Shown here: positions 2,234 to 32,896 of the stretch, piece after piece
Position numbering within the stretch: the first letter of the stretch is position 1
How the letters are laid out: every line of letters begins with the position of its first letter
Assembly (NCBI RefSeq): GCF_022843985.1
Contig: NZ_JALHMP010000003.1
Span: 62,001 to 126,000 of the forward strand
Reading direction: 5' to 3'
Length of the DNA: 64,000 bases
DNA from: Phreatobacter sp.
GTDB lineage: Bacteria > Pseudomonadota > Alphaproteobacteria > Rhizobiales > Phreatobacteraceae
The notes under the pieces: model-generated
The model's database searches: none
Seen by the model: the letters and a program-made list of their open reading frames with translations, nothing else
What the model was told of the DNA's origin: nothing
Translations under genes and position numbers: made by a program

Positions 2234-2249
2234 CGTTCGCTTACGAATG
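2234..2249. promoter_or_regulatory. Candidate MarR operator, copy 1
   Basis: CGTTCGCTTACGAATG, an imperfect 16-bp inverted repeat about 84 bp upstream of the binding-protein start. It matches 12 of 16 positions of the perfect dyad CGTTCGTAGACGAACG at 7149-7164, which sits in front of hyuA in the same operon. Sixteen-base dyads with CG-rich half sites are usual for MarR-family proteins, and a marR gene lies in this operon (16334). The gap also has an AT-rich stretch (2199-2275) suitable for a promoter and a GC hairpin at 2295-2312 in the presumed leader. Confidence 0.5.
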
Positions 2250-2332
2250 ATCTTCCGAAGAACAAAAAACGGAAGTCTCGGTCAGAGGTGGAACGGGCGG
2301 TCCCCGCCGCCCGCATCTGAGGGGAGATTGTC

Positions 2333-3559
2333 ATGACGAAGCTTGATCTGTCGCGTCGCACCGTCGTCGGGGGCCTTGCCGCCACCGGTGTGGCCATGAC
2401 CGCCGGCACCGGTGCCGCCCAGGGCGCACCGGTCAAGGTGGGTGAACTGAATTCCTACAGCCGCATGGCCGCGTTCGCGGTGCCCTACCGAAACGGCATG
2501 CAACTCGCCGTCGAGCAGGTCAACGCCGCCGGCGGTCTCGCAGGCCTCGGCGGCCGTCCGCTGGAGATCATCTACCGCGACGACGGGGCCACGCCGGGCG
2601 ATGCCGTCCGTGTCGCCGAGGAACTCGTGACCCGCGAGAACGTCACGTTCATCGCCGGCGCCTTCCTGTCGAATGTCGGTCTCGCGCTCGCCGACTTCGC
2701 CAACCAGAAGAAGGTGCTCTATCTCGCCACCGAGCCCCTGACCGACGCCCTGACCATGGGCAGCGGCAATCCCTTCACGTTCCGCGTCCGGCCCGGCACC
2801 TATATGCAGACCAAGATGCTGGTCGATGCCGCCAAGTCGAAGGGCGTGAAGCGCTGGGCGTTGGTGGCACCGAACTACGAATATGGCCAGTCGGCAGTCG
2901 CCGCCTTCAAGCGCCTGATGGGCGCCGCGGTGCCGGGCTTCGAGGTCGTCGCCGAGCAGTTCCCGGCCCTCGGCCGTGTCGATGCCGGCGCCACCGTGGG
3001 GGCGCTGGCCCAGAGCCGCCCGGACGGCATCTTCAACGTGCTGTTCGGTGCCGACCTGACCGCCTTCGTGCGCGAGGGCAACACGCGCGGCCTGTTTGAG
3101 CGCCGCACCGTCGTCAGCCTCCTCACCGGCGAGCCGGAATATCTCCTGCCGCTCGGCGACGAGACGCCGGAAGGCTGGATCGTCACCGGCTACCCGCCGG
3201 AGCAGGTCGACACGCATGGCCACCAGGCCTTCGTCACCGCCTACAAGGCGAAGTTCAACGACACGCCGCGCCTCGGCTCGGTGCTCGGTTATGTCGTGCC
3301 CTTCATGATCCGCGACATGTTCAACAAGTCGCGGTCCACCGAGACGGCGGCGATGATGGAGGCCTTCAAGGGCCTGACGACGCAGACCGTCTGCGGCCCC
3401 GTCACCATGCGCGCCATCGACCAGCAGTCGACGCTCGGCGCCTGGGTCGGCGAGACCACGCTGAAGGGCAAGCTGCCGACCATGAAGAACTTCCGCTATG
3501 TCGACGGCGCCGACGTGATGTTCCCCGAGGCCGAGGTCCGCGCCGCCCGCCGGATCTGA
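2333..3559 (+). CDS. Branched-chain/amide-type ABC transporter substrate-binding protein
   Basis: 408 residues, type-1 periplasmic binding protein (Peripla_BP_6/LivJ class). The N-terminus has a twin-arginine signal (LSRRTVVGG) and a hydrophobic stretch ending near GAAQGA, so export by Tat is likely. The mature part begins VKVGELNSYS and has typical blocks such as AVEQVNAAGG, IYRDDGATPGDA and an ALVAPNYEYGQ motif. ATG 2333 has GGGGAG 6 nt upstream. It is the first gene of cluster 1 and supplies the fused permease and LivG/LivF that follow. The ligand cannot be read from sequence; the downstream enzymes suggest a cyclic amide or N-heterocycle rather than an amino acid. Confidence 0.92.
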   Translation: MTKLDLSRRTVVGGLAATGVAMTAGTGAAQGAPVKVGELNSYSRMAAFAVPYRNGMQLAVEQVNAAGGLAGLGGRPLEIIYRDDGATPGDAVRVAEELVTRENVTFIAGAFLSNVGLALADFANQKKVLYLATEPLTDALTMGSGNPFTFRVRPGTYMQTKMLVDAAKSKGVKRWALVAPNYEYGQSAVAAFKRLMGAAVPGFEVVAEQFPALGRVDAGATVGALAQSRPDGIFNVLFGADLTAFVREGNTRGLFERRTVVSLLTGEPEYLLPLGDETPEGWIVTGYPPEQVDTHGHQAFVTAYKAKFNDTPRLGSVLGYVVPFMIRDMFNKSRSTETAAMMEAFKGLTTQTVCGPVTMRAIDQQSTLGAWVGETTLKGKLPTMKNFRYVDGADVMFPEAEVRAARRI

Positions 3560-3682
3560 GGGCGGGACCTGTTCCGCATGACATGAACGTCCCGGGCCGC
3601 TGCGCCCGGGATCGTTTCCCCCGATGGGCCGCGGCGACGCCGCGACCCTGCTCCTATCGCTCGCGCCGAGAGCCCCCCACCG

Positions 3683-5593
3683 ATGGATCTCTCCTTCTTC
3701 GTCATCCAGACCCTGTCGGGATTGGCCAGCGCCTCGTCGCTGTTCGTCATCGCCTCCGGCCTCACCATCGTCTTCGGCGTGACGCGGATCGTGAATTTCG
3801 CCCACGGCTCCTTCTACATGCTCGGGGCCTATATGGCGGTGACCATCGTGCCCTGGCTGCTGGAGTTCGACCGTTCGCCGACGCTGTTCTTCGTCGGCGT
3901 CCTGGCCTCGGCACTGGTGGTCGGCGTCCTCGGCGTCATCATGGAGGTGGTGCTGCTGCGCCGCATCTACCGGGTGCCGGAACTGTTCCAGCTGCTCGCC
4001 ACCTTCGGCGTCGTGCTGATCGTCCAGGACGTGGTGCTGAAAATCTGGGGGCCAGTGGACATTACCGGGCCGCGCGCGCCCGGCATGCGCCACGGCATCG
4101 AGATCCTCGGCCAGCGCTTTCCGGCCTATGAACTGTTCCTGATCTTCGTCGGCCCGGCGGTGCTCGGCGCCCTCCTCCTCATCATGCACAAGACACGCTT
4201 CGGTGTGCTGATCCGCGCCGCGACCCAGGACCGCGAGATGGTCGGGGCGCTCGGCGTCAATCAGGCCATGCTGTTCACTGGGACGCTGTTCCTCGGCGCC
4301 TTCCTCGCCGGTCTCGGCGGGGCCCTGCAGATCCCGCGCCTGCCGGCCAATACCGGCATGGACCTCTCGATCATCACCGAGGCCTTCGTCGTCACGGTGA
4401 TCGGTGGCATGGGGTCGGTCCCCGGCGCCTTCATCGCCGCGCTGATCATCAAGATGCTGGAGGCTTTCGGCATCCTCATCTTCCCGAAAATCACGCTGGT
4501 CCTGGTCTTCCTGCTCATGGCGGTCGTGCTGGTGGTCAAGCCCTGGGGCCTGATGGGCAAGCCGGAGGTCGCCTCGGGCCGCGCCGTGCTCCCCGAGGGC
4601 ATCCTCAACCTCAAGGGCTTCTCCAGGAAAGAGACCATGGTCTGGGTGGTGCTGACCCTCGCGCTGCTGCTCGTGCCCATCCTCGGCGATACCTACAAGG
4701 TGAAAGTCGGCATCGAGATCATGGTGTTCGCGCTCGCCGCCTTCTCGCTGAACCTGCTGATCGGCAATGGCGGCATCGTCTCCTTCGGCCATGCCGCCTA
4801 TTTCGGGGTCGGCGCCTATGCGGCGGGCCTGCTCGTCACCGGGCCGCTCAAGGCGCCGATGGAACTGGCGCTGGTGGCGGCACCGCTGGCCGGGGGCCTG
4901 GCAGCCGCGCTGTTCGGCTATTTCATCGTCCGCCTCTCCGGCATCTATCTCGCCATGCTGACGCTCGCCTTCGCCCAGATCACCTATGCCATCTTCTTCC
5001 AGTGGGTTGAGGTCACGGGGGGTGACAACGGTGTCGTCGGCGTCTGGCCGTCGCGCTGGGCGGCGACGCGCGAGGTCTATTTCTACGTCGTCGCGGTGCT
5101 CGCCCTGACCAGTATCGTGGCGCTGCGGCACCTGTTCTACACGCCCTTCGGCTACACGCTGCGCGCCGCCCGCGACAGCGCCAACCGGGCCGATGCCATC
5201 GGCATCGACGTGAAGACCCATCGCTGGCTCGCCTTCATCGTCGCAGGTGCTGCGGCGGGCCTGGCCGGTGGGCTCTACTCCTTCTCCAAGGGCTCGATCG
5301 ACCCGACGATGATCTCCATCGCCATGTCCATCGACTTCCTGATGATGATCCTCACTGGCGGCATTCAGACGGTGATGGGCCCGCTTGTCGGCACCGCGGT
5401 TTTCCACTCGGTGAAGGACTTCTTCATGCCGCTCACCGATTTCTGGCGCTTCTTCCTCGGTGTCTCGATCATCGCCATCGTGCTGATCTTCCCGAAGGGC
5501 GTGGTCGGCGCGCTGGACGGATTGCGCGAACGGCTGGGACGCCGCGCGCCCACTCCCGCCACCCCGGCGGCTGTTGCCAGGGAGACCGCGTGA
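3683..5593 (+). CDS. Fused LivH-LivM branched-chain-type ABC permease
   Basis: 636 residues, about twice a single Liv permease. Residues about 1-290 are LivH-like (ASGLTIVFGVTRIVNFAHG, then VIGGMGSVPGAF) and about 310-620 are LivM-like (NLLIGNGGIVSFGHAAYFG, GGIQTVMGPLVG). Each half has its own set of membrane helices, so one polypeptide should replace the usual LivH/LivM heterodimer in the inner membrane. The stop overlaps the following livG start (TGATG), implying translational coupling. The 123-bp gap after the binding protein has no clear terminator. The second Liv system of this window (29508, 30435) keeps the two permeases separate. Confidence 0.93.
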   Translation: MDLSFFVIQTLSGLASASSLFVIASGLTIVFGVTRIVNFAHGSFYMLGAYMAVTIVPWLLEFDRSPTLFFVGVLASALVVGVLGVIMEVVLLRRIYRVPELFQLLATFGVVLIVQDVVLKIWGPVDITGPRAPGMRHGIEILGQRFPAYELFLIFVGPAVLGALLLIMHKTRFGVLIRAATQDREMVGALGVNQAMLFTGTLFLGAFLAGLGGALQIPRLPANTGMDLSIITEAFVVTVIGGMGSVPGAFIAALIIKMLEAFGILIFPKITLVLVFLLMAVVLVVKPWGLMGKPEVASGRAVLPEGILNLKGFSRKETMVWVVLTLALLLVPILGDTYKVKVGIEIMVFALAAFSLNLLIGNGGIVSFGHAAYFGVGAYAAGLLVTGPLKAPMELALVAAPLAGGLAAALFGYFIVRLSGIYLAMLTLAFAQITYAIFFQWVEVTGGDNGVVGVWPSRWAATREVYFYVVAVLALTSIVALRHLFYTPFGYTLRAARDSANRADAIGIDVKTHRWLAFIVAGAAAGLAGGLYSFSKGSIDPTMISIAMSIDFLMMILTGGIQTVMGPLVGTAVFHSVKDFFMPLTDFWRFFLGVSIIAIVLIFPKGVVGALDGLRERLGRRAPTPATPAAVARETA

Positions 5594-6384
5594 TGCAGCC
5601 GCTCCTGAGCGTCACCGGCCTCGAAAAGCGCTTCGGCGGCGTCACCGCCGGCAAGGATGTCACCTTCAGCCTCGCAGCGGGTGAGATGCTTGCCATCATC
5701 GGTCCGAACGGGGCCGGCAAGTCGACGACCTTCAATATGGTCGGCGGCCAGTTGACGCCCGATGCCGGGTCCATCGTTCTGGCGGGCCAGGACATCACCG
5801 GCAAGCCGCCGCGCGAGATCTGGCGCCTCGGGGTCGGCCGCACCTTCCAGATCGCCCAGACCTTCATCTCGATGAGCGTGGTCGAGAACGTGCAGATGGC
5901 GCTGATCTCTCATCACGGCCAGACGCGCTCGGTCAAGGAGGCCGCCACCCGGCTGCACCGCGATGCCGCCATCGGCTTTCTCGCCCGTGTCGGCATGGCC
6001 GACATGGCCGACCGCCCGGTCAACGAACTGGCCTATGGCGACGTCAAGCGGGTCGAGCTCGCCATCGCGCTCGCCTCGGAGCCCAAGCTCCTGCTCATGG
6101 ACGAGCCCACCGCCGGCATGGCGCCGAAGGAGCGCACGGCCCTGATGCAGCTGACCTCCGACATTGCCCGCGCCCATGGCATCGGCGTGCTCTTCACCGA
6201 GCACGACATGGATTCGGTCTTCGGCCATGCCGACCGCATCCTCGTGCTGGTCCGCGGCGAGATCATCGCCACCGGCACGCCCGACGAGGTGCGCTCCAAC
6301 CAGCGCGTCAAGCAGGTCTATCTCGGCGAGGCGGGGTCGCAGGCCGCCCTCAAGGCCCGCCGACAGGCCGCGGAGGCCCATTGA
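5593..6384 (+). CDS. livG: Branched-chain-type ABC transporter ATP-binding protein LivG
   Basis: 263 residues. Walker A GPNGAGKST, Walker B LLLMDEPTAGM and the H-loop (LFTEHDMDSVF) are present. The signature is LAYGDVKRVELA, a variant of the usual LSxGxxR. The C-terminal extension (EVRSNQRVKQVYLGE) is typical of LivG. ATG 5593 overlaps the permease stop; an in-frame GTG three bases earlier is less likely. It should pair with the LivF protein encoded immediately downstream to power the fused permease at the cytoplasmic face. Confidence 0.93.
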   Translation: MQPLLSVTGLEKRFGGVTAGKDVTFSLAAGEMLAIIGPNGAGKSTTFNMVGGQLTPDAGSIVLAGQDITGKPPREIWRLGVGRTFQIAQTFISMSVVENVQMALISHHGQTRSVKEAATRLHRDAAIGFLARVGMADMADRPVNELAYGDVKRVELAIALASEPKLLLMDEPTAGMAPKERTALMQLTSDIARAHGIGVLFTEHDMDSVFGHADRILVLVRGEIIATGTPDEVRSNQRVKQVYLGEAGSQAALKARRQAAEAH

Positions 6385-7115
6385 TGACCGCAGCACCCAC
6401 CGCCACCATCCTGGAGACCCGCGGCATTGCCGCCGCCTATGGCCATGCCCAGGTGCTGTTCGGCGTCGACATCACGCTGCGCGCCGGCGAGGTCGTGGCG
6501 CTGATGGGCCGCAACGGCGCCGGCAAGTCGACGACGCTGAAGGCGATCATGGGCGTCGTGTCGCCGCATGCCGGCACGGTCAGTTTCGAGGGCCAGGATG
6601 TGACGGGCTGGCAGCCCTACCGGATCGCCCGCCTCGGCATCGGCTATGTGCCGGAGGACCGGCGGATCTTCACCGACCTGACCGTCTTCGAGAACCTCGA
6701 GGTCGGCCGGAAGGCGGCAGCGGGGGCACCGGGCAAGGAGCCCTGGTCGCTCGACCGGCTCTTCGCCATCTTCCCGAACCTCGCGGAAATGAAGGGCCGC
6801 CGCGCCTCGGCCATGTCGGGCGGCGAGCAGCAGATGCTCACCATCGCCCGCACGCTGATGGGCAATCCGCATGCCGTGCTGCTGGACGAGCCCTCCGAGG
6901 GCCTCGCGCCCGTCATCGTCGAGCAGATGGCCGATGCCGTTCTCGCCATGAAGGCGCAGGGCATCGCCGTGCTGCTGTCGGAACAGAACCTCTATTTCGC
7001 TTCCGCCGTCTCCGACCGCGCCTATGTCATCGAGAAGGGCGCCATCCGATACGAGGGGACAACGGAGGACCTCGAGGCGAACGACGAGGTCAGGGAAGCC
7101 TATCTCAGCGTGTGA
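6384..7115 (+). CDS. livF: Branched-chain-type ABC transporter ATP-binding protein LivF
   Basis: 243 residues. Walker A GRNGAGKST, LivF block GYVPEDRRIFTDLTV, signature MSGGEQQML, Walker B AVLLDEPSEGLAP and a C-terminal EDLEANDEVREAYL are all intact. ATG 6384 overlaps the livG stop (TGATG). It completes the importer of cluster 1. A 63-bp gap containing a perfect 16-bp dyad separates it from hyuA, so the enzymes downstream may have an additional control point. Confidence 0.93.
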   Translation: MTAAPTATILETRGIAAAYGHAQVLFGVDITLRAGEVVALMGRNGAGKSTTLKAIMGVVSPHAGTVSFEGQDVTGWQPYRIARLGIGYVPEDRRIFTDLTVFENLEVGRKAAAGAPGKEPWSLDRLFAIFPNLAEMKGRRASAMSGGEQQMLTIARTLMGNPHAVLLDEPSEGLAPVIVEQMADAVLAMKAQGIAVLLSEQNLYFASAVSDRAYVIEKGAIRYEGTTEDLEANDEVREAYLSV

Positions 7116-7148
7116 AACCGACGCCGGACGGCGTGGCTCCGACCGCAC

Positions 7149-7164
7149 CGTTCGTAGACGAACG
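7149..7164. promoter_or_regulatory. Candidate MarR operator, copy 2 (perfect dyad before hyuA)
   Basis: CGTTCGTAGACGAACG has perfect 7-bp arms around an AG spacer. It ends 14 bases before the GTG start of hyuA and directly abuts the ribosome-binding sequence AAAAGGA. It matches the dyad at 2234-2249 with the same spacing. A bound repressor here would block read-through or an internal promoter and so set enzyme levels separately from the transporter. Confidence 0.55.
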
Positions 7165-7178
7165 AAAAGGACGACATC

Positions 7179-9218
7179 GTGAGGCGCGTTGCCGGCATCG
7201 ACGTTGGAGGCACTTTCACCGACCTGCTCCTGACCGAGCAGGACGGGGCAAGCGTGACCGTAAAGCTCGCCAAGGTGCCGACCAGCATCGCCAACCAGGC
7301 GGTGGGAGTGGTCAAGGCCATCGAGGCAGCCGGCGTCAGCCCGGCCGATCTCGACCTCATCATCCACGGCACGACGGCGACCACCAATGCGGTGCTTGAG
7401 CGCAAGGTGGCCAAGGTCGGCCTCATCACCACCGCGGGCTTCCGCGACACCCTCGAACTCGGACGGCGCACCCGGCCGCGCGCCTATGGCATGACCGGCA
7501 CGTTCGAGCCACTGATCGAGCGGCCCTTCCGCCGCGAGGTGGCCGAGCGCATGAACGCGCAAGGAGAGGTGGTCACGCCGCTCGACGAGGCCGCCGTGAA
7601 GCGCGAAGCCGAGGCCCTGGCCGCGGCCGGCTGCGAGGCCATCGTCGTGCATTTCCTGCATTCCTACGCCAATGCCGCCCATGAATTGCGCGCCGGCGAG
7701 ATCGTCCGCAGCGTCTGGCCGAACAGCTACGTGACGCTGGGCCATGAACTCCTCTCCGAATATCGCGAATACGAGCGCGGCACGACGGCGAGCGTCAATG
7801 CCGCGGTGCAGCCGATCCTCGACCGCTATGTACAGCGGCTGCAGGCCGATCTCTCCGCCAAGGGGTTTTCCCGCGACCTCCTGGTGATGAACGGCAATGG
7901 CGGCACTGTGCCGGCAACGCTTGTGGCACGAGAGGCGGCCAAGACGGTGATGTCAGGCCCCGCCTCCGGCGTCATGGCGGCGGCGGCGACGCTGGCCCAG
8001 TCCGGCCTCACCAATGCCATCACCTATGACATGGGCGGCACCTCCACCGACGTGGCGCTCATCCATGGCGGCATCCCCGAGGTGTCGGCGGAGCTGACCA
8101 TCGACTACGGCCTGCCGATCCACCTGCCCATGGTCGACGTCCGCACCGTCGGCGCCGGCGGCGGCTCCATCGCCTCGGTCAACGCGGCGGGGATGCTGCA
8201 GGTCGGGCCGCATTCGGCCGGGTCCGAGCCGGGCCCGATCTGTTATGGGCGGGGTGGAGCCCGTCCGACGATCACTGACGCCAACCTGATCCTCGGCCGG
8301 CTCGACCCCGACCGGCTCACCGCCGTGCAGGGGAAGGTTTCCCGCGACGACATCCGCGCCATCTTCGCGCGCGACCTGGCGCAGCCGCTGGGCATGAGCG
8401 TCGAGGAGGCCGCGGCGGCTGTCATCCGCCTCGGCAATGTCCACATGTCCGGCGCCATCCGCATGGTGTCGCTGTCGCGCGGCTACGACCCCCGCGACTT
8501 CGTGCTTTTCGCCTTCGGCGGCGCGGGGCCGCTCCACGCCGTGGCGCTGGCGCGCGAACTCGGGATCCCCGAGGTTCTCGTGCCGGCGCGTCCGGGCCTG
8601 ACCAATGCTCTGGGCTGCCTCGTCGCGGACCTGCGCCAGGACCGGGTGAACACGGTCAACAAACCGCTCGACCAGACCGACATGGACGAGGTGAAGCGGC
8701 TGATGACGGCGCAGCGCGACAGCGCCCTCGCCGTGGTCGAGGAGGAGAAGGCCGAGATCGAGGAGACCCTGGTCATCCACGGCGCCGACATGCAGTTCCG
8801 CGGCCAGACCCATCTCATCCGCGTGCCGCTCGCCTCGCCCGATGTGACGCGGGCGGAGATCCAGGCGGCCTTCGAGGCGGCCTATTTCCACCGCTTCCAG
8901 GTACGGCTGCCGGAAATCCGGGCCGTTCTGGTCAATCTCGTGACCTCTGTCATCGGTCGGCGTCGCCCCTTCCCGCTCTCCGCCCTGCTCGACGCCTCGG
9001 CGCGGGCGGGAACCGTGGAAGGCGCCATCATCGGCGAGCGGCAGGTCCATGCGGACGGGCGCTGGTGGGATGCCAAGGTCTATTCGCGCGATGCCCTGCC
9101 GGTCGGTGCCTCTGTGATCGGCCCGGCCGTCATCCAGCAGATCGACGCCACCACGGTCATCGAGCCGGGCGCGGTGGCGACCGTCGATGCCATCGGCAAT
9201 CTCCGGGTGAAGGCATGA
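7179..9218 (+). CDS. hyuA: Hydantoinase/oxoprolinase family protein, HyuA-type ATPase subunit
   Basis: 679 residues, usual for HyuA/N-methylhydantoinase A. The actin-like ATPase motifs are clear: VAGIDVGGTFTDLL at residues about 3-17, HGTTATTNAVLER near 65, MSGPASGVMAAA near 260 and YDMGGTSTDVALI near 285. Family members couple ATP hydrolysis to opening of cyclic amides (hydantoins, 5-oxoproline) or act as the ATPase of acetone-carboxylase-like enzymes. The start is GTG 7179 with AAAAGGA upstream. The stop overlaps the hyuB start (ATGA). In this operon I infer ring opening of an oxidised or reduced lactam; the exact substrate is not visible. Confidence 0.9.
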   Translation: MRRVAGIDVGGTFTDLLLTEQDGASVTVKLAKVPTSIANQAVGVVKAIEAAGVSPADLDLIIHGTTATTNAVLERKVAKVGLITTAGFRDTLELGRRTRPRAYGMTGTFEPLIERPFRREVAERMNAQGEVVTPLDEAAVKREAEALAAAGCEAIVVHFLHSYANAAHELRAGEIVRSVWPNSYVTLGHELLSEYREYERGTTASVNAAVQPILDRYVQRLQADLSAKGFSRDLLVMNGNGGTVPATLVAREAAKTVMSGPASGVMAAAATLAQSGLTNAITYDMGGTSTDVALIHGGIPEVSAELTIDYGLPIHLPMVDVRTVGAGGGSIASVNAAGMLQVGPHSAGSEPGPICYGRGGARPTITDANLILGRLDPDRLTAVQGKVSRDDIRAIFARDLAQPLGMSVEEAAAAVIRLGNVHMSGAIRMVSLSRGYDPRDFVLFAFGGAGPLHAVALARELGIPEVLVPARPGLTNALGCLVADLRQDRVNTVNKPLDQTDMDEVKRLMTAQRDSALAVVEEEKAEIEETLVIHGADMQFRGQTHLIRVPLASPDVTRAEIQAAFEAAYFHRFQVRLPEIRAVLVNLVTSVIGRRRPFPLSALLDASARAGTVEGAIIGERQVHADGRWWDAKVYSRDALPVGASVIGPAVIQQIDATTVIEPGAVATVDAIGNLRVKA

Positions 9219-10921: not shown

Positions 10922-11784
10922 TGCAGTATTTCCGCCCGACCAGCCTGGCCGATGCCCTCGCCATCAAGGCCGATCACGACGTGACCATCCTCGCAGGGGG
11001 CACCGACGTCTATCCGGTGCGCACCGCCCGCCGGGCCTGGGGCGACCCCGCCCACAGACCTGTGCTCGACATCACCGCCATACCCGGCCTCAGGGGCATC
11101 ACCGAGGAGCCGGGCGGCTGGCGCTTTGGGGCGCTGACGACATGGAGCGATCTCGCTGCGGCCGGGCTGCCGCCCCTCTTCGACGGCTACCGCCGCGCGG
11201 CGCGGGAGGTCGGCGGCCTGCAAGTGCAGAATCTCGGAACGCTCGCGGGTAATCTCGTCACGGCATCGCCGGCCGGCGACGGCATCCCCAATCTCATGGC
11301 GCTCGACGCCGTGGTGGAAGTCGCCGGAAAGGGCGGCACGCGCACCCTTCCGGTCCAGGCCTTCTCCACCGGCTATCGCAGCACGGCGCTGGCGGCGGAC
11401 GAGATCGTCACCGCCCTGATCGTACCGAAGCTGCATGGTGCCCGCTCGACGTTCCTGAAGCTCGGCGCCCGCAAATATCTTGTCATCTCCATCGCCATGG
11501 TCGCGGCAATCGTCGTCACCAACGAGGCCGGCACCATCACCGCCGTGCGGATCGCCGTCGGCGCCTGTTCGGCCGTCGCCCAGCGGCTCACCGCCCTCGA
11601 AGCCGCCCTCCTCGGCCAGCCCCTCGGGCAGGCCGCTGGACTGGTCACGGCGGGCCATCTCGCCGACCTCGCCCCCATTGACGACGTACGCGCCTCCGCC
11701 GCCTACCGTCTCGCCGCGGCGGAGTCGCTGGTGCGCGACGCGCTCACCGATCTTGCCGCCACCGCCGCCCGGAGGGCTGCCTGA
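10921..11784 (+). CDS. FAD-binding subunit of a molybdopterin hydroxylase (CoxM/XdhB-like)
   Basis: 287 residues, normal for the FAD subunit of xanthine-dehydrogenase/CO-dehydrogenase family enzymes. Residues about 25-35 (ILAGGTDVYP) and about 100-125 (NLGTLAGNLVTASPAGDGIP) are the two FAD-binding loops of the PCMH-type fold. I chose ATG 10921, which overlaps the hyuB stop, over upstream in-frame starts. The stop overlaps the ATG of the fused Fe-S/Mo subunit (TGATG). It should pass electrons from the Fe-S clusters to an acceptor. Confidence 0.92.
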   Translation: MQYFRPTSLADALAIKADHDVTILAGGTDVYPVRTARRAWGDPAHRPVLDITAIPGLRGITEEPGGWRFGALTTWSDLAAAGLPPLFDGYRRAAREVGGLQVQNLGTLAGNLVTASPAGDGIPNLMALDAVVEVAGKGGTRTLPVQAFSTGYRSTALAADEIVTALIVPKLHGARSTFLKLGARKYLVISIAMVAAIVVTNEAGTITAVRIAVGACSAVAQRLTALEAALLGQPLGQAAGLVTAGHLADLAPIDDVRASAAYRLAAAESLVRDALTDLAATAARRAA

Positions 11785-14594
11785 TGCTCGACCGTCCCGT
11801 CCTTCCGACCGTCACGCTCACCGTCAACGGCACCGACCGGATGGTGGCGGCCGACCCCTTCGCCAGCCTCGCCGATACGCTGCGCGAAGGGCTCGGCCTC
11901 ACCGGCACCAAGATCGGCTGCGATGCGGGTGACTGTGGCGCCTGCACGGTGCTGATGGACGGCGCGCAGGTCTGCGCCTGCCTCGTCGCCACGGCGCAGG
12001 CCGAGGGCCGGGCGATCACCACGATCGAGGCCGAGGACCCGCTCGTCGACAGGCTGCGCGCCGCCTTTCTCGCGGCCGGCGCCGCCCAGTGTGGCATCTG
12101 CACGCCGGGCATGATCATGGCGGCGGCCGACTTGCTGGCGCACAAAGCGGCGCCGACCCGTCGCGAGATCGAGGACGGCATCGGCGGCGTGCTCTGCCGC
12201 TGCACCGGCTATATCAAGATCGTCGAGGCCATCGAGGCGGTGGCGCGCGGCGCCAATGCCTTCGCCCCCGTGGCCGAGGCGGGGGCCGCCGTCGGCGCCC
12301 GCATCGCCCGTGCCGACGGGCTCCCCAAGGTCCAGGGCACCGACCGCTTCGGCGCCGACTTCGCTCCCGAAGGTGCGCTGTGGATGCGCGCGGTGCGCTC
12401 GCCCCATGCCCGCGCCCGCTTCACCCTCGGCGATCTTTCGGCGGTGAAGGCGGCCCATCCGGGGCTGGAAGCGATCCTGACAGCCGCAGATATTCCCGGC
12501 GCCAATTCCTTCGGCATCTTCCCGACCATCAAGGACCAGCCGGTGCTGGCGCCGGGCCTCGTGCGCTACCGCGGCGAGGCCATCCTCGCCCTCGTCGGCA
12601 CGCGCGAGGCCGTGGAGGGACTCGCCGACGCCGCGCTGCCGATCACCTGGGAGGTGGAGCCGGCGCTGATCGGCGTCGATGCGGCCCTCGCTGAGGGCGT
12701 GACGCCGCTCCATGCCAATATACCCGACAATGTCCTGACCCGCGGCTATCTAGAGACCGGCGACATCGCCGAGGGGCACCGGCTGGGCACTGCCACCGCC
12801 GAAGGCCGCTTCCGCACCGGCTTCGTCGAACATGCCTACATCGAGCCGGAAGCCGGTTATGCGGTCAGGACAAAAGCGATTTCAAGCGAAGCGGGAACCG
12901 GTTCGCGTGAAGAAATCGCGTGGGATGACTCCTCCGACCGGATCGAAGTCACCGCCTGCACCCAGGCCGCGGTCATGGACCAGGAGGAGGTCGCCCGCGT
13001 CGTCGGCGTCTCCATGGCGCAGGTCCGCATCATCCCGACCGCCTGTGGCGGTGGTTTCGGCGGCAAGCTCGACGTCTCCATCCAGCCGCTCATCGCGGTG
13101 GCCGCCTGGCTGACGAGGAAGCCCGTCCGCATCGTCTATTCGCGCACCGAGAGCATGGCCTCGACCACCAAGCGCCATCCCTCGCAGATCCAGGCGCGGA
13201 TGTCGGCCGATGCGGCGGGCCGCTTCACCGCCTATGAGATGACCGGCGACTTCAACACCGGCGCCTATGCCTCCTGGGGGCCGACGGTGGCGAACCGCGT
13301 GCCGGTCCACGCCACCGGCCCCTACAAGGTGCCGCATGTGAGGAACGCCACCCGCGCCGTCCATACCAACGAGGTCCCGGCCGGCGCCTTCCGCGGCTTC
13401 GGCGTGCCGCAGGCGGCCCTGGCCGGCGAGACGCTGATCGACGATCTCGCCGAGAGGCTCGGCATCGACCGCTGGGCCATCCGCCGGATCAATGCCATCG
13501 ACCACGGCGACCGGACCCCGACGGGGCAGATCCTCTACGCCTCGGCCGGCCTGCCGCAATGCCTCGATTCGGTGAAAGCGGACTACGACCGGCTCATGGC
13601 CGGGGCCGCTGCCCACAACGCCATGGGCGGGCGCACCGCCCGCGGCGTCGGTGTCGCCTGCATGTGGTATGGCTGCGGCAACACCTCCATGTCCAATCCG
13701 TCGAAGATGCGGATCACGCTCGCCCGCGACGGCCGGCTGACCTTCCTCAACGGCGCCGTCGACATCGGCCAGGGGTCCTCGACCGTGCTCCTGCAGATCG
13801 CCGCGGATGCGCTGGGGCTGCCGACGGCCGCCTTCGATTTCATCGTCGGGGATACCGACCGGACTCCCGATGCCGGGAAGACCTCGGCGTCGCGCCAGAC
13901 CTTCGTCTCGGGCAATGCGGCGAAGCTCGCCGGCAGGGATCTCCGGGCGAAGATCCTGGCGCTGGCCAATGCCGGTCCCTCGGCCCGGCTCGCCCTCGAC
14001 GGTCATAGGCTGACGGTGGAGGACGGCGAGGCGAGCCGGGTCATCGACCTGTCGGTCCTGGCATCGGAGGCGGACATCGTCCTCGCCGGCGAGGGCGAAT
14101 ATGATCCGCCGACCACGGCGCTGGACGCCAAGGGCCAGGGCATTCCCTACGCCACCTACGGCTTCGCCGCGCAGGTGGCCGAGGTGGAAGTCGATCGCCT
14201 GCTCGGCACGGTGAAGGTGACGCGGATCCTCGCTGCCCACGATGTCGGGCGGGCCATCAACCCGACCCTGACCGAGGGGCAGATCCACGGTGGCATCGCG
14301 CAGGGGCTGGGTCTGGCGCTGATGGAGGAATATCTCCCCGGCCGCACCGAGAACCTGCACGACTATCTGATCCCGACGGCCGGCGACATGCCGGAAATCA
14401 CCATCCATCTGATCGAGGATACCGAGCCGGAGGGTCCGTTCGGGGCCAAGGGCGTCGGCGAGCCGGCGCTGGTGGCCACCGCCCCGGCCATCCTCGGGGC
14501 GATCCGCCACGCCGTCGGCGTGCGCATGACCGAGGTGCCGGTCCTGCCGCACCGGCTGTGGGCCGCGATGCAGGGACGGGAGGCGGCGGAATGA
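11784..14594 (+). CDS. Molybdopterin-dependent hydroxylase, fused [2Fe-2S] and Mo subunits (CoxS-CoxL fusion)
   Basis: 936 residues. Residues 1-80 are a plant-type ferredoxin domain with C46, C51, C54 and C66. Residues about 80-165 are the second [2Fe-2S] domain (QCGICTPG, LCRCTGY). From about 175 the chain is the large molybdopterin subunit, with GGGFGGKLDVSIQP, the AFRGFGVPQ loop, DIGQGSST and the C-terminal GAKGVGEP glutamate that is catalytic in this superfamily. The reaction would be hydroxylation of an electron-poor ring carbon using water. Fusion of small and large subunits is less common than separate genes. Residues about 363-384 are a foreign-looking segment encoded by a palindromic repeat (see 12876-12919). 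Confidence 0.9.
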   Translation: MLDRPVLPTVTLTVNGTDRMVAADPFASLADTLREGLGLTGTKIGCDAGDCGACTVLMDGAQVCACLVATAQAEGRAITTIEAEDPLVDRLRAAFLAAGAAQCGICTPGMIMAAADLLAHKAAPTRREIEDGIGGVLCRCTGYIKIVEAIEAVARGANAFAPVAEAGAAVGARIARADGLPKVQGTDRFGADFAPEGALWMRAVRSPHARARFTLGDLSAVKAAHPGLEAILTAADIPGANSFGIFPTIKDQPVLAPGLVRYRGEAILALVGTREAVEGLADAALPITWEVEPALIGVDAALAEGVTPLHANIPDNVLTRGYLETGDIAEGHRLGTATAEGRFRTGFVEHAYIEPEAGYAVRTKAISSEAGTGSREEIAWDDSSDRIEVTACTQAAVMDQEEVARVVGVSMAQVRIIPTACGGGFGGKLDVSIQPLIAVAAWLTRKPVRIVYSRTESMASTTKRHPSQIQARMSADAAGRFTAYEMTGDFNTGAYASWGPTVANRVPVHATGPYKVPHVRNATRAVHTNEVPAGAFRGFGVPQAALAGETLIDDLAERLGIDRWAIRRINAIDHGDRTPTGQILYASAGLPQCLDSVKADYDRLMAGAAAHNAMGGRTARGVGVACMWYGCGNTSMSNPSKMRITLARDGRLTFLNGAVDIGQGSSTVLLQIAADALGLPTAAFDFIVGDTDRTPDAGKTSASRQTFVSGNAAKLAGRDLRAKILALANAGPSARLALDGHRLTVEDGEASRVIDLSVLASEADIVLAGEGEYDPPTTALDAKGQGIPYATYGFAAQVAEVEVDRLLGTVKVTRILAAHDVGRAINPTLTEGQIHGGIAQGLGLALMEEYLPGRTENLHDYLIPTAGDMPEITIHLIEDTEPEGPFGAKGVGEPALVATAPAILGAIRHAVGVRMTEVPVLPHRLWAAMQGREAAE
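12876..12919. repeat. 44-bp palindromic repeat inside the molybdopterin hydroxylase gene (copy 1 of 2)
   Basis: The ends GCGATTTC and GAAATCGC are inverted, and an inner GCGAA/TTCGC pair flanks a GC-rich centre containing ACCGGT. The core 12885-12910 matches 24 of 26 bases of 56441-56466 in the cupin gene. It is read in frame as AISSEAGTGSREEIA between EPEAGYAV and DRIEVTACTQ, which in related enzymes are close together. Similar short palindromes are common between genes in Hyphomicrobiales, from general knowledge. Confidence 0.8.
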
Positions 14595-14624
14595 GGACGT
14601 CTTTCTCGGCGCTCTTGATCCATG

Positions 14625-14770
14625 CCCCATCCGCACCCTCACCGCTGCGCGGGGAGGGAGACTATGACGCCCTGGACTGGTCTCGAGCGTCGGGCCAGGC
14701 GCGACCGTTTCCAATAGGCCGCGACGCCGTGGTCCCCCTCCCCGCGCGAGCGGGGAGGGTACGGGTGGGG
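14625..14770. repeat. Family-A palindromic intergenic repeat
   Basis: This fills most of the 234-bp gap between the hydroxylase gene and the Fe-S reductase gene. The left end (CCCATCCGCACCCTC) and right end (GAGGGTACGGGTGGG) are inverted, and each end also has its own short hairpin (GCTGCGC/GCGGGGAGG; CCCCGCGCGAGCGGGG). It resembles the copies at 32713-32870 and 40858-41011. The rest of the gap shows only AGGAGG at 14819-14824, a strong ribosome site for the next gene. Confidence 0.75.
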
Positions 14771-14828
14771 CAGTCCTTGCAGCCTCCCGCACAAGCTCGC
14801 GCCCGATACCCCATCCCAGGAGGTCGTC

Positions 14829-16337
14829 ATGACCGCCACTGACCACCTGTCGCTCGAAGCGCGCTCGAGGAAGTTCGGCGCCGACGAGGGCGGCGGCATC
14901 CTGCGTTGCGACGCCTGTCCGGTCCTGTGCCGCATCCGCCCAGGGCGTGCGGGCGCCTGTTCGCGCTATGCCAACGAGAACGGCCAGCTGGTGCGCACCG
15001 ACCCGGTCGTGCTGCTGGCGAAGACTGTCGAGGACGGTGGCAAGATGGTCCCCTTCGGCACGAATGACTGGGATGGCCAGGCGCTGGATCCCCAGCGCAC
15101 CTTCGTCACCGCCATCGGCGCCGGCACCACCTATCCCGACTACAAGCCGGCCCCCTTCATCGTCTCGGCGATTCATGAGGGCGTCGACACGGTCACCGTC
15201 GTGACCGAGGGCATCTTCAGCTATTGCGGCGTCAAGGTGAAGATCGACACCGACCGCCATCTCGGCCCCGAGGCGGCGCCGATCCGCGTCGGCGGCGAGC
15301 AGGTCGGCCATGTCACGACGGCCGAATATGGCAGCCAGATGCTCTCCATCGGCGGGGTGCGCCATCTCACCGGCGGCTCGAAGAAGGAGGGCAACGTCAC
15401 CTGCGACACGATGCTCAAGCTCTGCGCCGGAGAGGCCGTCACCATGGTGATCGACGGCGGCCATGAGGTGGTGGTCGCGGCGAACCAGGCCCCCATCGTC
15501 GACGGCAAGCCCGAGCAGCGCATGCGGGTGGGCTGCGGCTCGGCGACCGTCGGCATCTTCGCCAAGCAGTGGCTCGGCCATGTCGACGAGGTCATCGTCG
15601 TCGACGATCACATCACCGGCGTGCTGACCGAGCATCAGGCCGGCAAGGTGCTGGACATGCGCCAGGCCGGCATCCGCGTGCGCGGGCGCAAGTCGACGCC
15701 CGGCCGCTATTTCCAGGTCGCCAATCCCGGCATCGGCTGGGGCGGCACGGATATCGAGGACCCGCTGTCGATCATCCAGAAGATCGATCCGGAGACGGCC
15801 TGGCCGGGCCTGCGCCTGCTGATGACCTCCACCACCGGCGAGCATTTCCTCTATTGCGTGCTGGACGAGAACCTTGTGCCGGTGCCCGCCCCGATCCCGG
15901 AGGCGGTGATGAAAGTGGTCGATCGCATCGGCGAGAATTGCGAGCCCTCGCTCTGCACGGTCCTGTTCATGGCCGGCGCCGGCGGAAGCCTCAGGGCCGG
16001 CGTCACCGAAAATCCGGTTCTGCTCACCCGGTCCGTCGCCTCCGGCGAGACGAAGGTCACCATGGGCGGCGCGCCGGTCTATCTGTGGCCGGGCGGCGGC
16101 ATCACCGTCATGGCCGATGTGACAAAACTGCCGAAGAACGCCTTCGGCTACGTGCCCACCCCTGCCATCGTCGCGCCGATCGAGTTCACCCTGCCGCGGG
16201 CGCTCTACGAGCGGCTCGGCGGGCATATGGACGATGTCGTCTCCATCGATGACATCCTGCGCGACGTCGCACCGCAGGCACGGATCGACGGCTGGATCGA
16301 CGGCAATCCCTGGCCCTTCCCGGAGAAGCGCCCATGA
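14829..16337 (+). CDS. 6-hydroxynicotinate reductase-like Fe-S protein
   Basis: 502 residues. A cysteine cluster near the N-terminus (C27, C30, C34, C44 in CDACPVLCRIRPGRAG) can hold an Fe-S centre; other blocks include FIVSAIHEGVDTVTV, TEGIFSYCGVKVK and GGAPVYLWPGGG. It resembles the 6-hydroxynicotinate reductase family, named from the nicotinate-fermenting Eubacterium barkeri enzyme, which reduces the pyridine ring to a tetrahydro-oxo product with ferredoxin. Homologues are annotated so in aerobic alphaproteobacteria. AGGAGG lies 4 nt before the ATG. The stop overlaps the marR start (ATGA). Following a Mo hydroxylase, ring reduction is the natural role, but the substrate is unproven. Confidence 0.72.
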   Translation: MTATDHLSLEARSRKFGADEGGGILRCDACPVLCRIRPGRAGACSRYANENGQLVRTDPVVLLAKTVEDGGKMVPFGTNDWDGQALDPQRTFVTAIGAGTTYPDYKPAPFIVSAIHEGVDTVTVVTEGIFSYCGVKVKIDTDRHLGPEAAPIRVGGEQVGHVTTAEYGSQMLSIGGVRHLTGGSKKEGNVTCDTMLKLCAGEAVTMVIDGGHEVVVAANQAPIVDGKPEQRMRVGCGSATVGIFAKQWLGHVDEVIVVDDHITGVLTEHQAGKVLDMRQAGIRVRGRKSTPGRYFQVANPGIGWGGTDIEDPLSIIQKIDPETAWPGLRLLMTSTTGEHFLYCVLDENLVPVPAPIPEAVMKVVDRIGENCEPSLCTVLFMAGAGGSLRAGVTENPVLLTRSVASGETKVTMGGAPVYLWPGGGITVMADVTKLPKNAFGYVPTPAIVAPIEFTLPRALYERLGGHMDDVVSIDDILRDVAPQARIDGWIDGNPWPFPEKRP

Positions 16338-16792
16338 CGGTCAAGCGAGCCAAGCGCGTCGGCGAGATGGCGCCGGACAAACCCTATGTCCTCGAAGACC
16401 AGATCGGCTTCCTCATCCGGCGCGCCCACCAGCGCGCCAGCTCCATTTTCGAGCAGGTGATGGACGGGCTGGACGTGACGCCGGTGCAATATGCCGCGCT
16501 CGCCAAGCTGCACGATCTCGGTCCAACCTCGCAGAACCAGCTGGGCCGCCTGGTCGGCATCGATCCGGCGACGATGTTCGGGGTGGCGGGGCGGCTTGCC
16601 AAGCGCGGCCTCGTCTCGCCCTCGGTCGACCCGAACGATGCGCGCCTCGTCCTTCTCGAACTCACCGCCACCGGCCGCGATACGGTCGAGGCCATGAAGG
16701 CGCGGGGGCCGGAGGTCTCGGCGCGCACGCTCGAGCCCTTGTCGGCCGAGGAAGCCGCGACGCTGCTCGCCCTGCTCGGGCGGATCGGCTGA
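16334..16792 (+). CDS. MarR family transcriptional regulator (cluster 1)
   Basis: 152 residues. It has the winged helix-turn-helix of MarR proteins: QYAALAKLHDLGPTSQNQLGRLVGIDPATMF (here split as QYAALAKLHDLG and QNQLGRLVGIDPATMF), then GLVSPSVDPNDARLVLLELT for the wing. Dimerisation helices flank it. These repressors bind 16-20-bp dyads and release DNA on binding aromatic or heterocyclic ligands. The gene overlaps the reductase by 4 nt and lies 2 nt before the UPF0280 gene. I infer that it controls cluster 1 through the dyads at 2234 and 7149. Confidence 0.92.
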   Translation: MTVKRAKRVGEMAPDKPYVLEDQIGFLIRRAHQRASSIFEQVMDGLDVTPVQYAALAKLHDLGPTSQNQLGRLVGIDPATMFGVAGRLAKRGLVSPSVDPNDARLVLLELTATGRDTVEAMKARGPEVSARTLEPLSAEEAATLLALLGRIG

Positions 16793-16794
16793 CC

Positions 16795-17661
16795 ATGTGG
16801 GAGGCCCCGACGGTCCAGCGCCTCGACGGCGACCGGCTGCATCTGCAGCATGGGCCGATCGACGTCGTGCTGCGGGCCTGGGGCGCGGCGGGCGCGGTGC
16901 GCGAGGCCTATGAGGCGGTGGTCGCACGGTTCGGCGCCATCCTGCCCGAACTCGCCGGGGAACTCACCGAACTGCGCAAGCCGATGGCCGAGCGCCCGGG
17001 CGTGGACGGCCCGGTGGCCCGCCGCATGGTGGCGGCCTGCCGGCCCCATGCCGGCCTCTTCGTCACGCCGATGGCAGCGGTGGCCGGCGCGGTGGCGGAT
17101 GAACTGATGGAGACCCTGGTGACGGCGGCGCCGCTCGACCGCGCCTTCGTCAATGATGGCGGCGACATCGCCATCCACCTGACCGAGGGCGAAATAATGG
17201 ATGTGGCGGTTGCCGCCGATTTCGCGCGCGGGGCCGTTCCCGCCCTCAATGGCCGCATTACCCTGTCGGAGCGGGACGGGATCGGCGGCATCGCCACCTC
17301 CGGTGCGCAGGGGCGGTCGTTCTCGCTCGGCATCGCCGATTCCGTCACGGTCCTCGCCCGCGACGCCGCCTCGGCCGATGTCGCCGCGACGCTGATCGCC
17401 AATGCCGTCGATGTTGACGACCCGGCCATCCGCCGCAGCCCGGCCTGCGCACTCGACCCGGACAGCGATCTCGGCAGTCTCCTGGTGACCACCGCCGTCG
17501 GCCGGCTCGCCAAACCGCAGATCCTCGCCGCTCTGGAGGCCGGCCATGCGCGCGCCGAGCAGTTCCGACGGCGCGGCCTCATCTTCGATGCGGCGCTGAT
17601 GCTCCAGGGCGAGACCCGCATCCTCGGACCAACACGCAGCCTCAGGGAGTTGAAACCATGA
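16795..17661 (+). CDS. UPF0280 (COG2122) family protein, ApbE-superfamily fold
   Basis: 288 residues. Blocks typical of UPF0280: an N-terminal VQRLDGDRLHLQHGPID, MVAACRPH, FVTPMAAVAGAVADE, AFVNDGGDIAIHL and GIATSGAQGRSFSLG. The family is distantly related to the flavin transferase ApbE, and its function is unknown. ATG 16795 follows the marR stop by 2 nt, and the stop overlaps the next gene (ATGA). No signal peptide is seen, unlike classic ApbE. Its fixed place between a ring reductase and an AA_synth protein suggests a role in maturing an enzyme or acting on an intermediate; I cannot choose between these. Confidence 0.85.
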   Translation: MWEAPTVQRLDGDRLHLQHGPIDVVLRAWGAAGAVREAYEAVVARFGAILPELAGELTELRKPMAERPGVDGPVARRMVAACRPHAGLFVTPMAAVAGAVADELMETLVTAAPLDRAFVNDGGDIAIHLTEGEIMDVAVAADFARGAVPALNGRITLSERDGIGGIATSGAQGRSFSLGIADSVTVLARDAASADVAATLIANAVDVDDPAIRRSPACALDPDSDLGSLLVTTAVGRLAKPQILAALEAGHARAEQFRRRGLIFDAALMLQGETRILGPTRSLRELKP

Positions 17662-18239
17662 CCATCGACGTCAGGAAGATCGTCGTCGGCGTCGAGGAGG
17701 TCCGCCACGACGGCGGGCCGAAGCTCGACAGGCCGATCCTCAAGGGATGGATCGCCGCCGTGCTGAAGAACCCCTATGCCGGCCGCTATGTCGAGGACAT
17801 CCAGCCGATGATGGAGGCGCTCAAACCCCTCGGCCTGGAATGCGCGACGAAGCTTCTGAACGCGCTGGGCGGCGACACGGCCGCCATCGAGGCCTATGGT
17901 AAGGGCTCGCTGATCGGCTCGGCCGGCGAACTGGAGCACGGTGCCCTCTGGCACGTGCCCGGCGGCTATGCCATGCGCGAATTGCTCGGCGAGGCCCTGG
18001 CCATCGTGCCGTCGATGACCAAGGTGGGACCGCTCGGCGCCATCCTCGACGTGCCCATCCATCACCGCAACGCGGCCTATGTGCGCTCGCATTTCGACGG
18101 CGTGACGCTGATGGTTCAGGACTCACCGCGCCCCGACGAGATCCTCTTCGCCCTGGCCATGACCACCGGCGGCCGGCCGCATCCGCGCATGGGCGGTCTC
18201 ACGCAGGACCAGATTGCGAAGCGTGACGGACAGAGGTGA
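17658..18239 (+). CDS. AA_synth (DUF1185) family protein
   Basis: 193 residues, the full family length. Recognisable blocks are IDVRKIVVGVEEVRHDGG, KNPYAGRYVEDI, IEAYGKGSLIGSAGELEHG, LHVPGGYAMRELLG-like (HVPGGYAMREL) and HHRNAAYVRSHFDG. The family is named for a supposed role in amino acid synthesis, but no reaction is established. It is the last gene of cluster 1 and starts within the stop of the UPF0280 gene. Structures of the family exist without a defined activity, to my knowledge. The position suggests a late step or an isomerase/hydrolase on a ring-derived compound; this is speculation. Confidence 0.85.
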   Translation: MTIDVRKIVVGVEEVRHDGGPKLDRPILKGWIAAVLKNPYAGRYVEDIQPMMEALKPLGLECATKLLNALGGDTAAIEAYGKGSLIGSAGELEHGALWHVPGGYAMRELLGEALAIVPSMTKVGPLGAILDVPIHHRNAAYVRSHFDGVTLMVQDSPRPDEILFALAMTTGGRPHPRMGGLTQDQIAKRDGQR

Positions 18240-18297: not shown

Positions 18298-18585
18298 ATG
18301 ACGTTGTCGCTCGACTTCGACTGGCATGATGGGAAGGCAGCTTCGAACCTGAAGAAGCATGGCGTGTCGTTCGCGGATGCGCGCCGGGTCTTCTTCGACC
18401 CACTGCGCGTCGACAGGGACACGACGAGGGTGGCGGACGGCGAGGAGCGGCGCAAGGTCACCGGGCGGATCGGAACCAAGCTCTACACCGTCGTCTACAC
18501 AGAGCGCGGTCGTCTGTTCTGGATCATTTCGGCCCGTCGCGCCAATCGCACCGAGGAGAAGAGCTATGGGCAGGTTCCCGCTTGA
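18298..18585 (+). CDS. brnT: BrnT family toxin
   Basis: 95 residues. The opening FDWHDGKAASNLKKHGVSF is the hallmark of BrnT (F.WD..K...N..KHGVSF), followed by a variable strand region and the C-terminal RLFWIISARRANRTEEKSYG (also family-typical: IISAR.A...E...Y). BrnT is a RelE-fold ribonuclease that blocks translation. The start lies at the end of the operator dyad with no clear ribosome site, so it may be read from a nearly leaderless mRNA. Its last 20 bases overlap the antitoxin gene. Confidence 0.88.
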   Translation: MTLSLDFDWHDGKAASNLKKHGVSFADARRVFFDPLRVDRDTTRVADGEERRKVTGRIGTKLYTVVYTERGRLFWIISARRANRTEEKSYGQVPA

Positions 18586-18916
18586 TCCGAACAGTCTGCC
18601 GCCGCTCGACCCAGATTTCGAGCGGCGCATGGACGCCATGACACTGGAGGAGATCGAGCAGAACGCGCTCGACGATCCGGACAATCCGCCCTCCACCGAG
18701 GAGGAACTCGACCGCGGCGTCGCGGGCCGGCGCGTCCGCCTGCTGCGTCAGTCGCTGAATCTCAGCCAGCCGCAATTCGCCGAGCGCTACCGCATCAATC
18801 TCAGCCGTCTCCGTGACATCGAGCAGGGCCGCACTATGCCGGACAGCGCCTTCCTCGCCTACATCACCGTCATCGAGCAGGAGCGCGAGGCGGTGGACCG
18901 GGCGCTGGCCTCCTGA
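18566..18916 (+). CDS. HTH-domain antitoxin of the BrnT system
   Basis: 116 residues. The N-terminal half is acidic (LPPLDPDFERRMDAMTLEEIE, in shorter view DPDFERRMDAMTLEEI) and may neutralise the toxin. Residues about 50-110 are an XRE-type helix-turn-helix (VRLLRQSLNLSQPQFAERY, then LSRLRDIEQGRTMPDS). Classical BrnA antitoxins carry a ribbon-helix-helix, so this is a different partner type, though HTH partners of BrnT-like toxins are known. ATG 18566 is inside the toxin gene, giving coupled translation. It likely binds 18269-18293. Confidence 0.82.
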   Translation: MGRFPLDPNSLPPLDPDFERRMDAMTLEEIEQNALDDPDNPPSTEEELDRGVAGRRVRLLRQSLNLSQPQFAERYRINLSRLRDIEQGRTMPDSAFLAYITVIEQEREAVDRALAS

Positions 18917-32870: not shown

Positions 32871-32896
32871 TGCCACGCACAACCCGGGGCCACCCC

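Follow-up and report, generated by a model that had tools for sequence, protein, structure and literature searches.

A predicted nicotinate catabolic operon of Phreatobacter in which HyuA/HyuB probably stands in for enamidase

This study was concerned with a 64,000-nucleotide stretch of the Phreatobacter sp. contig NZ_JALHMP010000003.1 (here called the window), from a genome of 4.33 Mb in 53 contigs. Twelve near-gapless forward genes at positions 2333 to 18239, an operon as judged from the sequence, encode a Liv-type importer, a molybdenum (Mo) hydroxylase, a protein like the iron-sulfur enzyme 6-hydroxynicotinate reductase (Hnr), the HyuA/HyuB pair (HyuAB), a MarR regulator and two proteins of unknown function, UPF0280 and PF06684 (AA_synth). 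The original prediction had listed these parts and all of them are present. We consider it likely that the operon serves the catabolism of nicotinate (or 6-hydroxynicotinate) by a reductive route that uses HyuAB instead of the one-protein enamidase. The replacement itself, also proposed at the outset, is supported by tests on loci, on genomes and on the Hnr tree, which agree.

Two samples were used. The locus sample holds 100 Hnr loci, namely the best 80 of at least 588 from a scan of named contigs and 20 regions picked from the order sample. The order sample comprises 297 genomes of Hyphomicrobiales, 73 of which contain Hnr; one short match (G022, E 6e-4) was excluded from this set. Among the 100 loci, 34 carry HyuAB, 25 carry an enamidase, none carries both and 41 carry neither. 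The enamidase was first spotted among open reading frames in gaps of the neighbourhoods and then by homology; in blind clustering of open reading frames, the many shadow frames of the GC-rich DNA had obscured the result. The enamidase of L127 matches the solved structure 2VUN, which we take to be the Eubacterium barkeri enamidase, at 368 bits (E 4.8e-109), and by sequence the gene replaced by HyuAB is a true enamidase homologue. Contig ends are not the explanation of all 41 loci with neither enzyme, because 20 of these have at least 8 kb on each side. Of these 41 loci, 12 come from the order sample, and each of their genomes holds one of the two enzymes, and not the other, at a different place (enamidase in 11, HyuB in 1). 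Whole-genome searches for the other 29, which are named loci, found HyuB in 15, enamidase in 12, both in none and neither in two (L095 and L102); two of the 29 repeat order-sample genomes, as seen from identical matches (G298 = G037 and G324 = G293).

The same pattern was found in the order sample. The 73 genomes with Hnr divide into 29 with HyuB only, 38 with enamidase only, 4 with both and 2 with neither (Fisher test, 8e-14, with genomes that are not independent). This type of HyuB occurs in 36 of the 297 genomes, and 33 of the 36 contain Hnr. Within the window's genus, Hnr is present in all 12 genomes, the window's own and 11 others, and none has an enamidase at E <= 1e-60; this HyuB is found in 11 of them, the exception (G227) being an assembly of 480 contigs. 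These counts depend on identity cut-offs that were chosen after the matches had been viewed, which were 64% for enamidase and 55% for HyuB in the order sample and 59% and 66%, respectively, in the 29 whole-genome searches. When the order sample was counted again with HyuB at 66%, there were 26 genomes with HyuB only, 39 with enamidase only, 3 with both and 5 with neither. Enamidase-like matches of about 40-43% were left uncounted; these occur in five genomes with Hnr (G004, G020, G038, G226 and G245) and also in G316 and G313.

An either/or distribution could also arise from shared ancestry alone, with two old lineages that each kept one enzyme and no functional exchange between them. This was examined on a quick Hnr tree of 101 rows, of which 51 were labelled HyuAB and 48 enamidase, with L095 and L102 unlabelled; 39 rows took their label from genome searches, and L053 and L132 share one and the same Hnr sequence. 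The labels are clustered, as such a history would have it, with at least 10 changes of state against a mean of 33 for shuffled labels. However, at least 5 of the changes are forced by well-supported branches, a single HyuAB clade is rejected (approximately unbiased test on the quick tree, p-AU 2.4e-7), and two genera (g59 and g77) each contain both kinds. Locus-level labels alone give 7 changes, 3 of them forced. The changes fit what is expected for repeated exchange of two enzymes at one step, and shared ancestry alone, already disfavoured, is very improbable.

The residues of HyuAB are consistent with an ATP-dependent lactamase of the family that includes CapAB, oxoprolinase and hydantoinase. 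According to a report on the caprolactamase CapAB (PMC8453981), CapA Asp11 and Asp295 bind ATP, CapB Asp41, His99, Asp102 and His124 bind metal, alanine mutants of these residues retain at most 0.4% conversion, and CapB Tyr136 is the proposed acid/base group. The window pair shares with CapAB and the ATP-dependent lactamases the two subunits, the ATP-site aspartates (HyuA Asp8 and Asp284 in the alignment) and the Asp-His-Asp-His metal site (HyuB Asp47, His111, Asp114 and His136). The HyuA motifs are well kept. Among 34 rows, one of them the window, D-[MT]-GGT is present in all and DVGGT in 33, the remaining row having a gap there; the metal site is kept in 27 of 27 HyuB orthologs. It differs from CapAB in its linkage to Hnr and in having Phe148 at the position of Tyr136, and it scores 494 and 315 bits against caprolactamase equivalog cut-offs of 1000 each. 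Phe148 is a mark of the subfamily, whose mechanism may differ in detail from that of CapAB. Because HyuAB and enamidase largely exclude one another and exchange repeatedly on the tree, and because HyuAB retains the residues by which CapAB binds ATP and metal, it probably opens 1,4,5,6-tetrahydro-6-oxonicotinate (THON) with ATP.

A role for HyuAB as a carboxylase was also considered and is disfavoured by the scores, since HyuA matches hydantoinase at 464 bits and CapA at 397 bits versus 293 bits for acetophenone carboxylase, and HyuB gives 260 and 237 bits versus 121. On the Pleomorphomonas plasmid pSM30-1 (L137), which has a run of Hnr, UPF0280, AA_synth, HyuA and HyuB, the latter two bear the names of the gamma and delta subunits of acetophenone carboxylase, which is probably a misannotation.

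The likeliest substrate, as judged from homology, is nicotinate or 6-hydroxynicotinate, because of the orthology of Hnr, the match of the Mo subunit to nicotinate dehydrogenase and, weakly, the identity of MarR to NicR. First, the Hnr-like protein is 66-98% identical to the Hnr of the aligned loci, and relatives on several plasmids, at 62-82% identity, are annotated "6-hydroxynicotinate reductase"; by orthology, it is predicted to be this enzyme. Secondly, the Mo subunit matches the Mo chains of nicotinate dehydrogenase at 232 bits (3hrd_A) and 229 bits (3hrd_B). Third, a protein of L137 that is annotated NicR has 46% identity to MarR across 134 residues.

The cluster type is already known in part. 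One report (PMC3511419) describes a nicotinate cluster with Hnr that is conserved in Azorhizobium caulinodans and Bradyrhizobiaceae and consists of Hnr, a putative nicotinate ATP-binding cassette transporter, the genes for steps one to three and a pair of conserved unknown proteins; in the same text, strain SG-6C, which has the Hnr cluster, grows on nicotinate with 6-hydroxynicotinate as an intermediate, and the Azorhizobium route is said to pass via glutarate (PMC3511419). The operon had been put forward as undescribed and as possibly acting on a different pyridine, pyrimidine or lactam, and neither proposal is supported in that form, given this account of a published Hnr cluster for nicotinate (PMC3511419). 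The lack of a hydroxymethylglutarate branch, which the original prediction reported and took to suggest another substrate, is no pointer to one, given the glutarate route described for Azorhizobium. The loci L124 and L127 (group f35, taken as Bradyrhizobium-like) share Hnr, UPF0280, AA_synth, the importer and MarR with the window. However, they encode an enamidase, and their Mo hydroxylase protein is of another kind that bears a cytochrome (CxxCH motifs by eye), where the window has HyuAB and a fused iron-sulfur and Mo subunit. The fermentation of E. barkeri is alike in its order of hydroxylation, ring reduction and hydrolytic ring opening, and the window's Mo subunit resembles its 3hrd chains, but E. 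barkeri uses an enamidase, whereas the window's genome has HyuAB. Because HyuAB is found where an enamidase is expected, we file the operon as a variant of the known reductive nicotinate pathway, the new part being the swap of HyuAB and enamidase. No earlier report of a hydantoinase in nicotinate breakdown was found among the titles and abstracts listed from the open-licence literature.

Other Hnr loci retain much of the operon. Around Hnr, UPF0280 recurs at 95 of the 100 loci, the Mo subunit at 81, AA_synth at 71, MarR at 50 and the binding protein at 41, many loci being cut by contig ends. The closest named relatives are from Phreatobacter, with an Hnr 98% identical at L036. In the Methylobacterium loci (L041-L043 and L136, including plasmid pMaq22A_1p), HyuB stands immediately before Hnr, with no flavin adenine dinucleotide (FAD) and Mo subunit genes between; in L043, weaker Mo-hydroxylase matches lie 2.5 kb downstream of AA_synth. 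The pathway of these loci might begin at 6-hydroxynicotinate, or a different hydroxylase might serve. A gene for a ferredoxin-NADP-reductase-like protein (PF00970/PF00175) recurs next to several enamidase-type clusters (L110, L120, L127 and others), and its product could be the electron source for Hnr. Also, the Hnr of L072, from a record titled Mesoflavibacter sp. (Bacteroidota), groups with alphaproteobacterial sequences on the tree; the record may be mistitled.

Several observations weigh against the proposed pathway. First, the Methylobacterium loci have no Mo hydroxylase beside Hnr. Secondly, the exclusion is incomplete, with both enzymes in 4 of the 73 genomes with Hnr (G038, G098, G209 and G248), and neither in 2 (G032 and G227) as well as in 2 of the 29 whole-genome searches. 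Third, if the enamidase-like proteins of about 40-43% are counted, then G004, G020 and G245 turn into genomes with both. Also, of all single chains with a solved structure, the one that the Mo subunit matches best belongs to an aldehyde oxidoreductase (1dgj, 370 bits). Lastly, the position of CapB Tyr136 is Phe in the window and in 27 of 27 orthologs.

A rival explanation is that HyuAB acts elsewhere, on a separate lactam or hydantoin or in salvage, and that THON is opened by an enzyme that was not recognised. Many cyclic amides are substrates of related HyuAB enzymes, and the few genomes with both enzymes or neither agree with such a role. The original prediction named conserved separation of the hydroxylase and HyuAB genes from the reductase in relatives as evidence against it, and on this point the result is mixed; HyuAB is near Hnr at 34 of the 100 loci, but HyuB lies more than 70 kb from Hnr or on another contig in 9 of the 33 genomes that have Hnr and this type of HyuB (G038, G064, G069, G136, G159, G209, G245, G248 and G265). 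Contig breaks may explain the distance in some of the nine. However, exclusion of the enamidase holds where HyuB is distant, except in G038, G209 and G248, and none of the 29 genomes searched has both enzymes. For these reasons a separate role for HyuAB is improbable.

Alternatively, the enzymes could act in the same order on another hydroxypyridine or a substituted nicotinate, so that HyuAB would mark a change of substrate and the enamidase loci would keep nicotinate. On the Hnr tree, the HyuAB loci closest to the window fall together in a group of 19 rows with good support, which would suit this view, as would the Phe in place of Tyr136 and the absence of a Mo hydroxylase from some HyuAB loci. 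However, a single Hnr tree shows HyuAB and enamidase replacing one another repeatedly, both occur within genera g59 and g77, and UPF0280 accompanies both (all 34 HyuAB loci and all 25 enamidase loci). A new substrate at each switch is the less simple explanation. Thus, we regard a change of substrate as unlikely, and nicotinate or 6-hydroxynicotinate is retained as the probable substrate of the operon.

Hnr and UPF0280 were each aligned from 60 locus sequences plus the window (94 usable Hnr, 93 usable UPF0280). Hnr of E. barkeri reportedly carries covalently bound flavin and iron-sulfur clusters. The aligned Hnr sequences have invariant cysteines at positions 27, 30, 34, 44, 133, 192, 236 and 371. 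The Hnr-like protein has no Pfam or NCBIfam family above curated cut-offs and no relative by sequence in the PDB, and its model, of moderate quality (predicted local distance difference test, pLDDT, 79.5), has no PDB fold match at E <= 0.001. UPF0280, presumably the family name for the PRK04334/DUF375 protein, gave a model with a pLDDT of 92.6, and Foldseek matched it to 2o34, FmnB (E 2.5e-6) and ApbE (E 4.4e-5), the matches to FmnB and ApbE chains having E from 2.5e-6 to 1e-3 and template modelling scores of about 0.35-0.54. The model thus points to an ApbE-like fold. Hnr is present in 70 of 71 genomes with UPF0280, and UPF0280 in 70 of 73 genomes with Hnr; at 86 of the 95 loci carrying it, UPF0280 lies at most 500 bp downstream of hnr. 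Because of this fold and co-occurrence, UPF0280 probably serves Hnr and is a candidate maturation factor, perhaps for flavin insertion. Two results weigh against a role in flavin maturation. The segment DPxTG, which we take to be canonical for ApbE, occurs in 0 of 61 UPF0280 sequences, which also have no invariant His, and the flavinylation motif D-x-x-[ST]-G-A-[ST] occurs in 0 of 61 Hnr sequences. The catalytic His of ApbE is His257 in V. cholerae (PMC12052999). Thus, UPF0280 shares the fold of the ApbE and FmnB flavin transferases but is not classed as ApbE, because DPxTG, the invariant His and the partner motif are missing; it may nevertheless act in a similar way.

AA_synth occurs as two types. 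All 25 enamidase loci have type 2, as do 2 of the 34 loci with HyuAB. Type 1 is found at 25 of the 34 with HyuAB and at 12 of the 25 with enamidase. AA_synth also adjoins enamidase-like genes away from any Hnr found (74% identity on G244:C12; 41-43% on G004:C2, G056:C2 and G236:C84), hinting at a broader partnership of AA_synth with amidohydrolases; G244 is an example of a genome in which the search turned up no Hnr. According to PMC7913881, HcdD is a relative in PF06684, and its homologue TgnF, from trigonelline breakdown, is said to stimulate its partner enzyme, which was not observed for HcdD. In the operon, AA_synth may help to handle the unstable enamine.

From the computed gene content, either/or distribution, repeated change on the tree, catalytic residues and ApbE-like fold, the following reactions may be inferred for the organism. 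The Liv-type importer would take up the substrate, the Mo hydroxylase would carry out 6-hydroxylation, and Hnr, served by UPF0280, would reduce 6-hydroxynicotinate to THON. The lactam of THON would then be opened at the expense of ATP, with HyuA activating the lactim and HyuB performing a metal-assisted hydrolysis. The resulting enamine would lose ammonia to give 2-formylglutarate, either spontaneously or aided by AA_synth, and the carbon would exit via glutarate.

The features of the region are listed in Table 1. In operon order, the intergenic gaps are 123, -4, -4, 63, -4, -19, -1, 234, -4, 2 and -4 bp, so the only larger ones are after the binding protein (123 bp), before hyuA (63 bp) and before hnr (234 bp). 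The PF02538 match of HyuB (E 4.3e-162) was scored on a longer open reading frame (9065-10921). Rfam gave no match above gathering scores within window positions 1-21000, and promoter- and terminator-like sites were not in excess over shuffles.

Table 1. Features of the operon and the following gene, with window coordinates.
Feature	Position	Strand	Evidence
Substrate-binding protein, Liv/Urt-type importer	2333..3559	+	PF13458, E 2.2e-63
Fused permease, LivH-LivM / UrtB-UrtC type	3683..5593	+	PF02653, two stretches; UrtB-/UrtC-like halves under equivalog cut-offs
ATPase, LivG type	5590..6384	+	PF00005, PF12399
ATPase, LivF type	6381..7115	+	PF00005
HyuA, predicted ATP-binding subunit, CapA/hydantoinase kin	7179..9218	+	PF01968, PF05378, PF19278; 7hk5 464 bits, 6yra_A 397 bits
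HyuB, predicted metal-binding hydrolytic subunit, CapB kin	9215..10921 (start ATG 9215)	+	PF02538; 6yra_B 260 bits
FAD subunit, Mo hydroxylase	10903..11784	+	PF00941, PF03450; nicotinate dehydrogenase 3hrd_C third at 91 bits, after two CutM chains (96 and 95 bits)
Fused 2Fe-2S and molybdopterin subunit, Mo hydroxylase	11784..14594	+	Fer2, Fer2_2, Ald_Xan_dh_C, MoCoBD_1/2
Dispersed palindromic repeat between Mo subunit gene and hnr	14595..14828	.	47 genome-wide matches, counting both strands
Hnr, 6-hydroxynicotinate reductase-like iron-sulfur protein	14829..16337	+	Identity to Hnr loci; annotation of plasmid relatives
MarR-family regulator	16334..16792	+	PF01047, E 6.7e-12
UPF0280 / PRK04334 protein, predicted ApbE-like fold	16795..17661	+	NF003322, 375 bits (cut-off 290)
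AA_synth, PF06684 (formerly DUF1185), type 1	17658..18239	+	E 3.8e-69; solved relatives 3byq, 2qtp
Family III coenzyme A (CoA)-transferase, tentative member, possibly for glutarate	18996..20141	+	PF02515

The palindromic repeat ahead of hnr is about 150 bp long, with further window copies at about 32714-32872 and 40858-41011; at the Phreatobacter loci L037 and L038, the Mo subunit gene and hnr lie too close together to accommodate it. The repeat might lower the expression of hnr and of the genes downstream. The assignment of the CoA-transferase as a glutarate enzyme is tentative; its best NCBIfam model is succinate-glutarate CoA-transferase at 231 bits, far under the cut-off of 750, and the gene is found at the same place in the Phreatobacter loci L036-L038. 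Between the operon and this gene are a BrnT-type toxin gene (18298-18585; PF04365, E 2.6e-24) and a gene for a helix-turn-helix protein (18566-18916), the BrnT match being found also at L036 and L037 and not at L038. Directly upstream of the importer, on the same strand, is a gene of the L-asparaginase II family (1097-2122; PF06089, E 4.4e-113).

A wider reading, which we hold tentatively and at less than even confidence, joins these results. THON would be opened by either of two non-homologous, often exchanged systems, an ATP-free enamidase with its own AA_synth or HyuAB as an ATP-driven enamide lactamase, and Hnr, an iron-sulfur flavoenzyme with no confident fold match in the PDB, would have in UPF0280 a dedicated flavin transferase of a non-canonical, cytosolic kind, or else a flavin chaperone. 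If the proposed pathway is true, one step in the breakdown of vitamin B3 (nicotinate) would be filled by either of two unrelated enzymes. In addition, a HyuA/HyuB subfamily named as acetophenone carboxylase subunits on one plasmid record would gain a testable function, and the uncharacterised families UPF0280 and PF06684 would be linked to a definite pathway.

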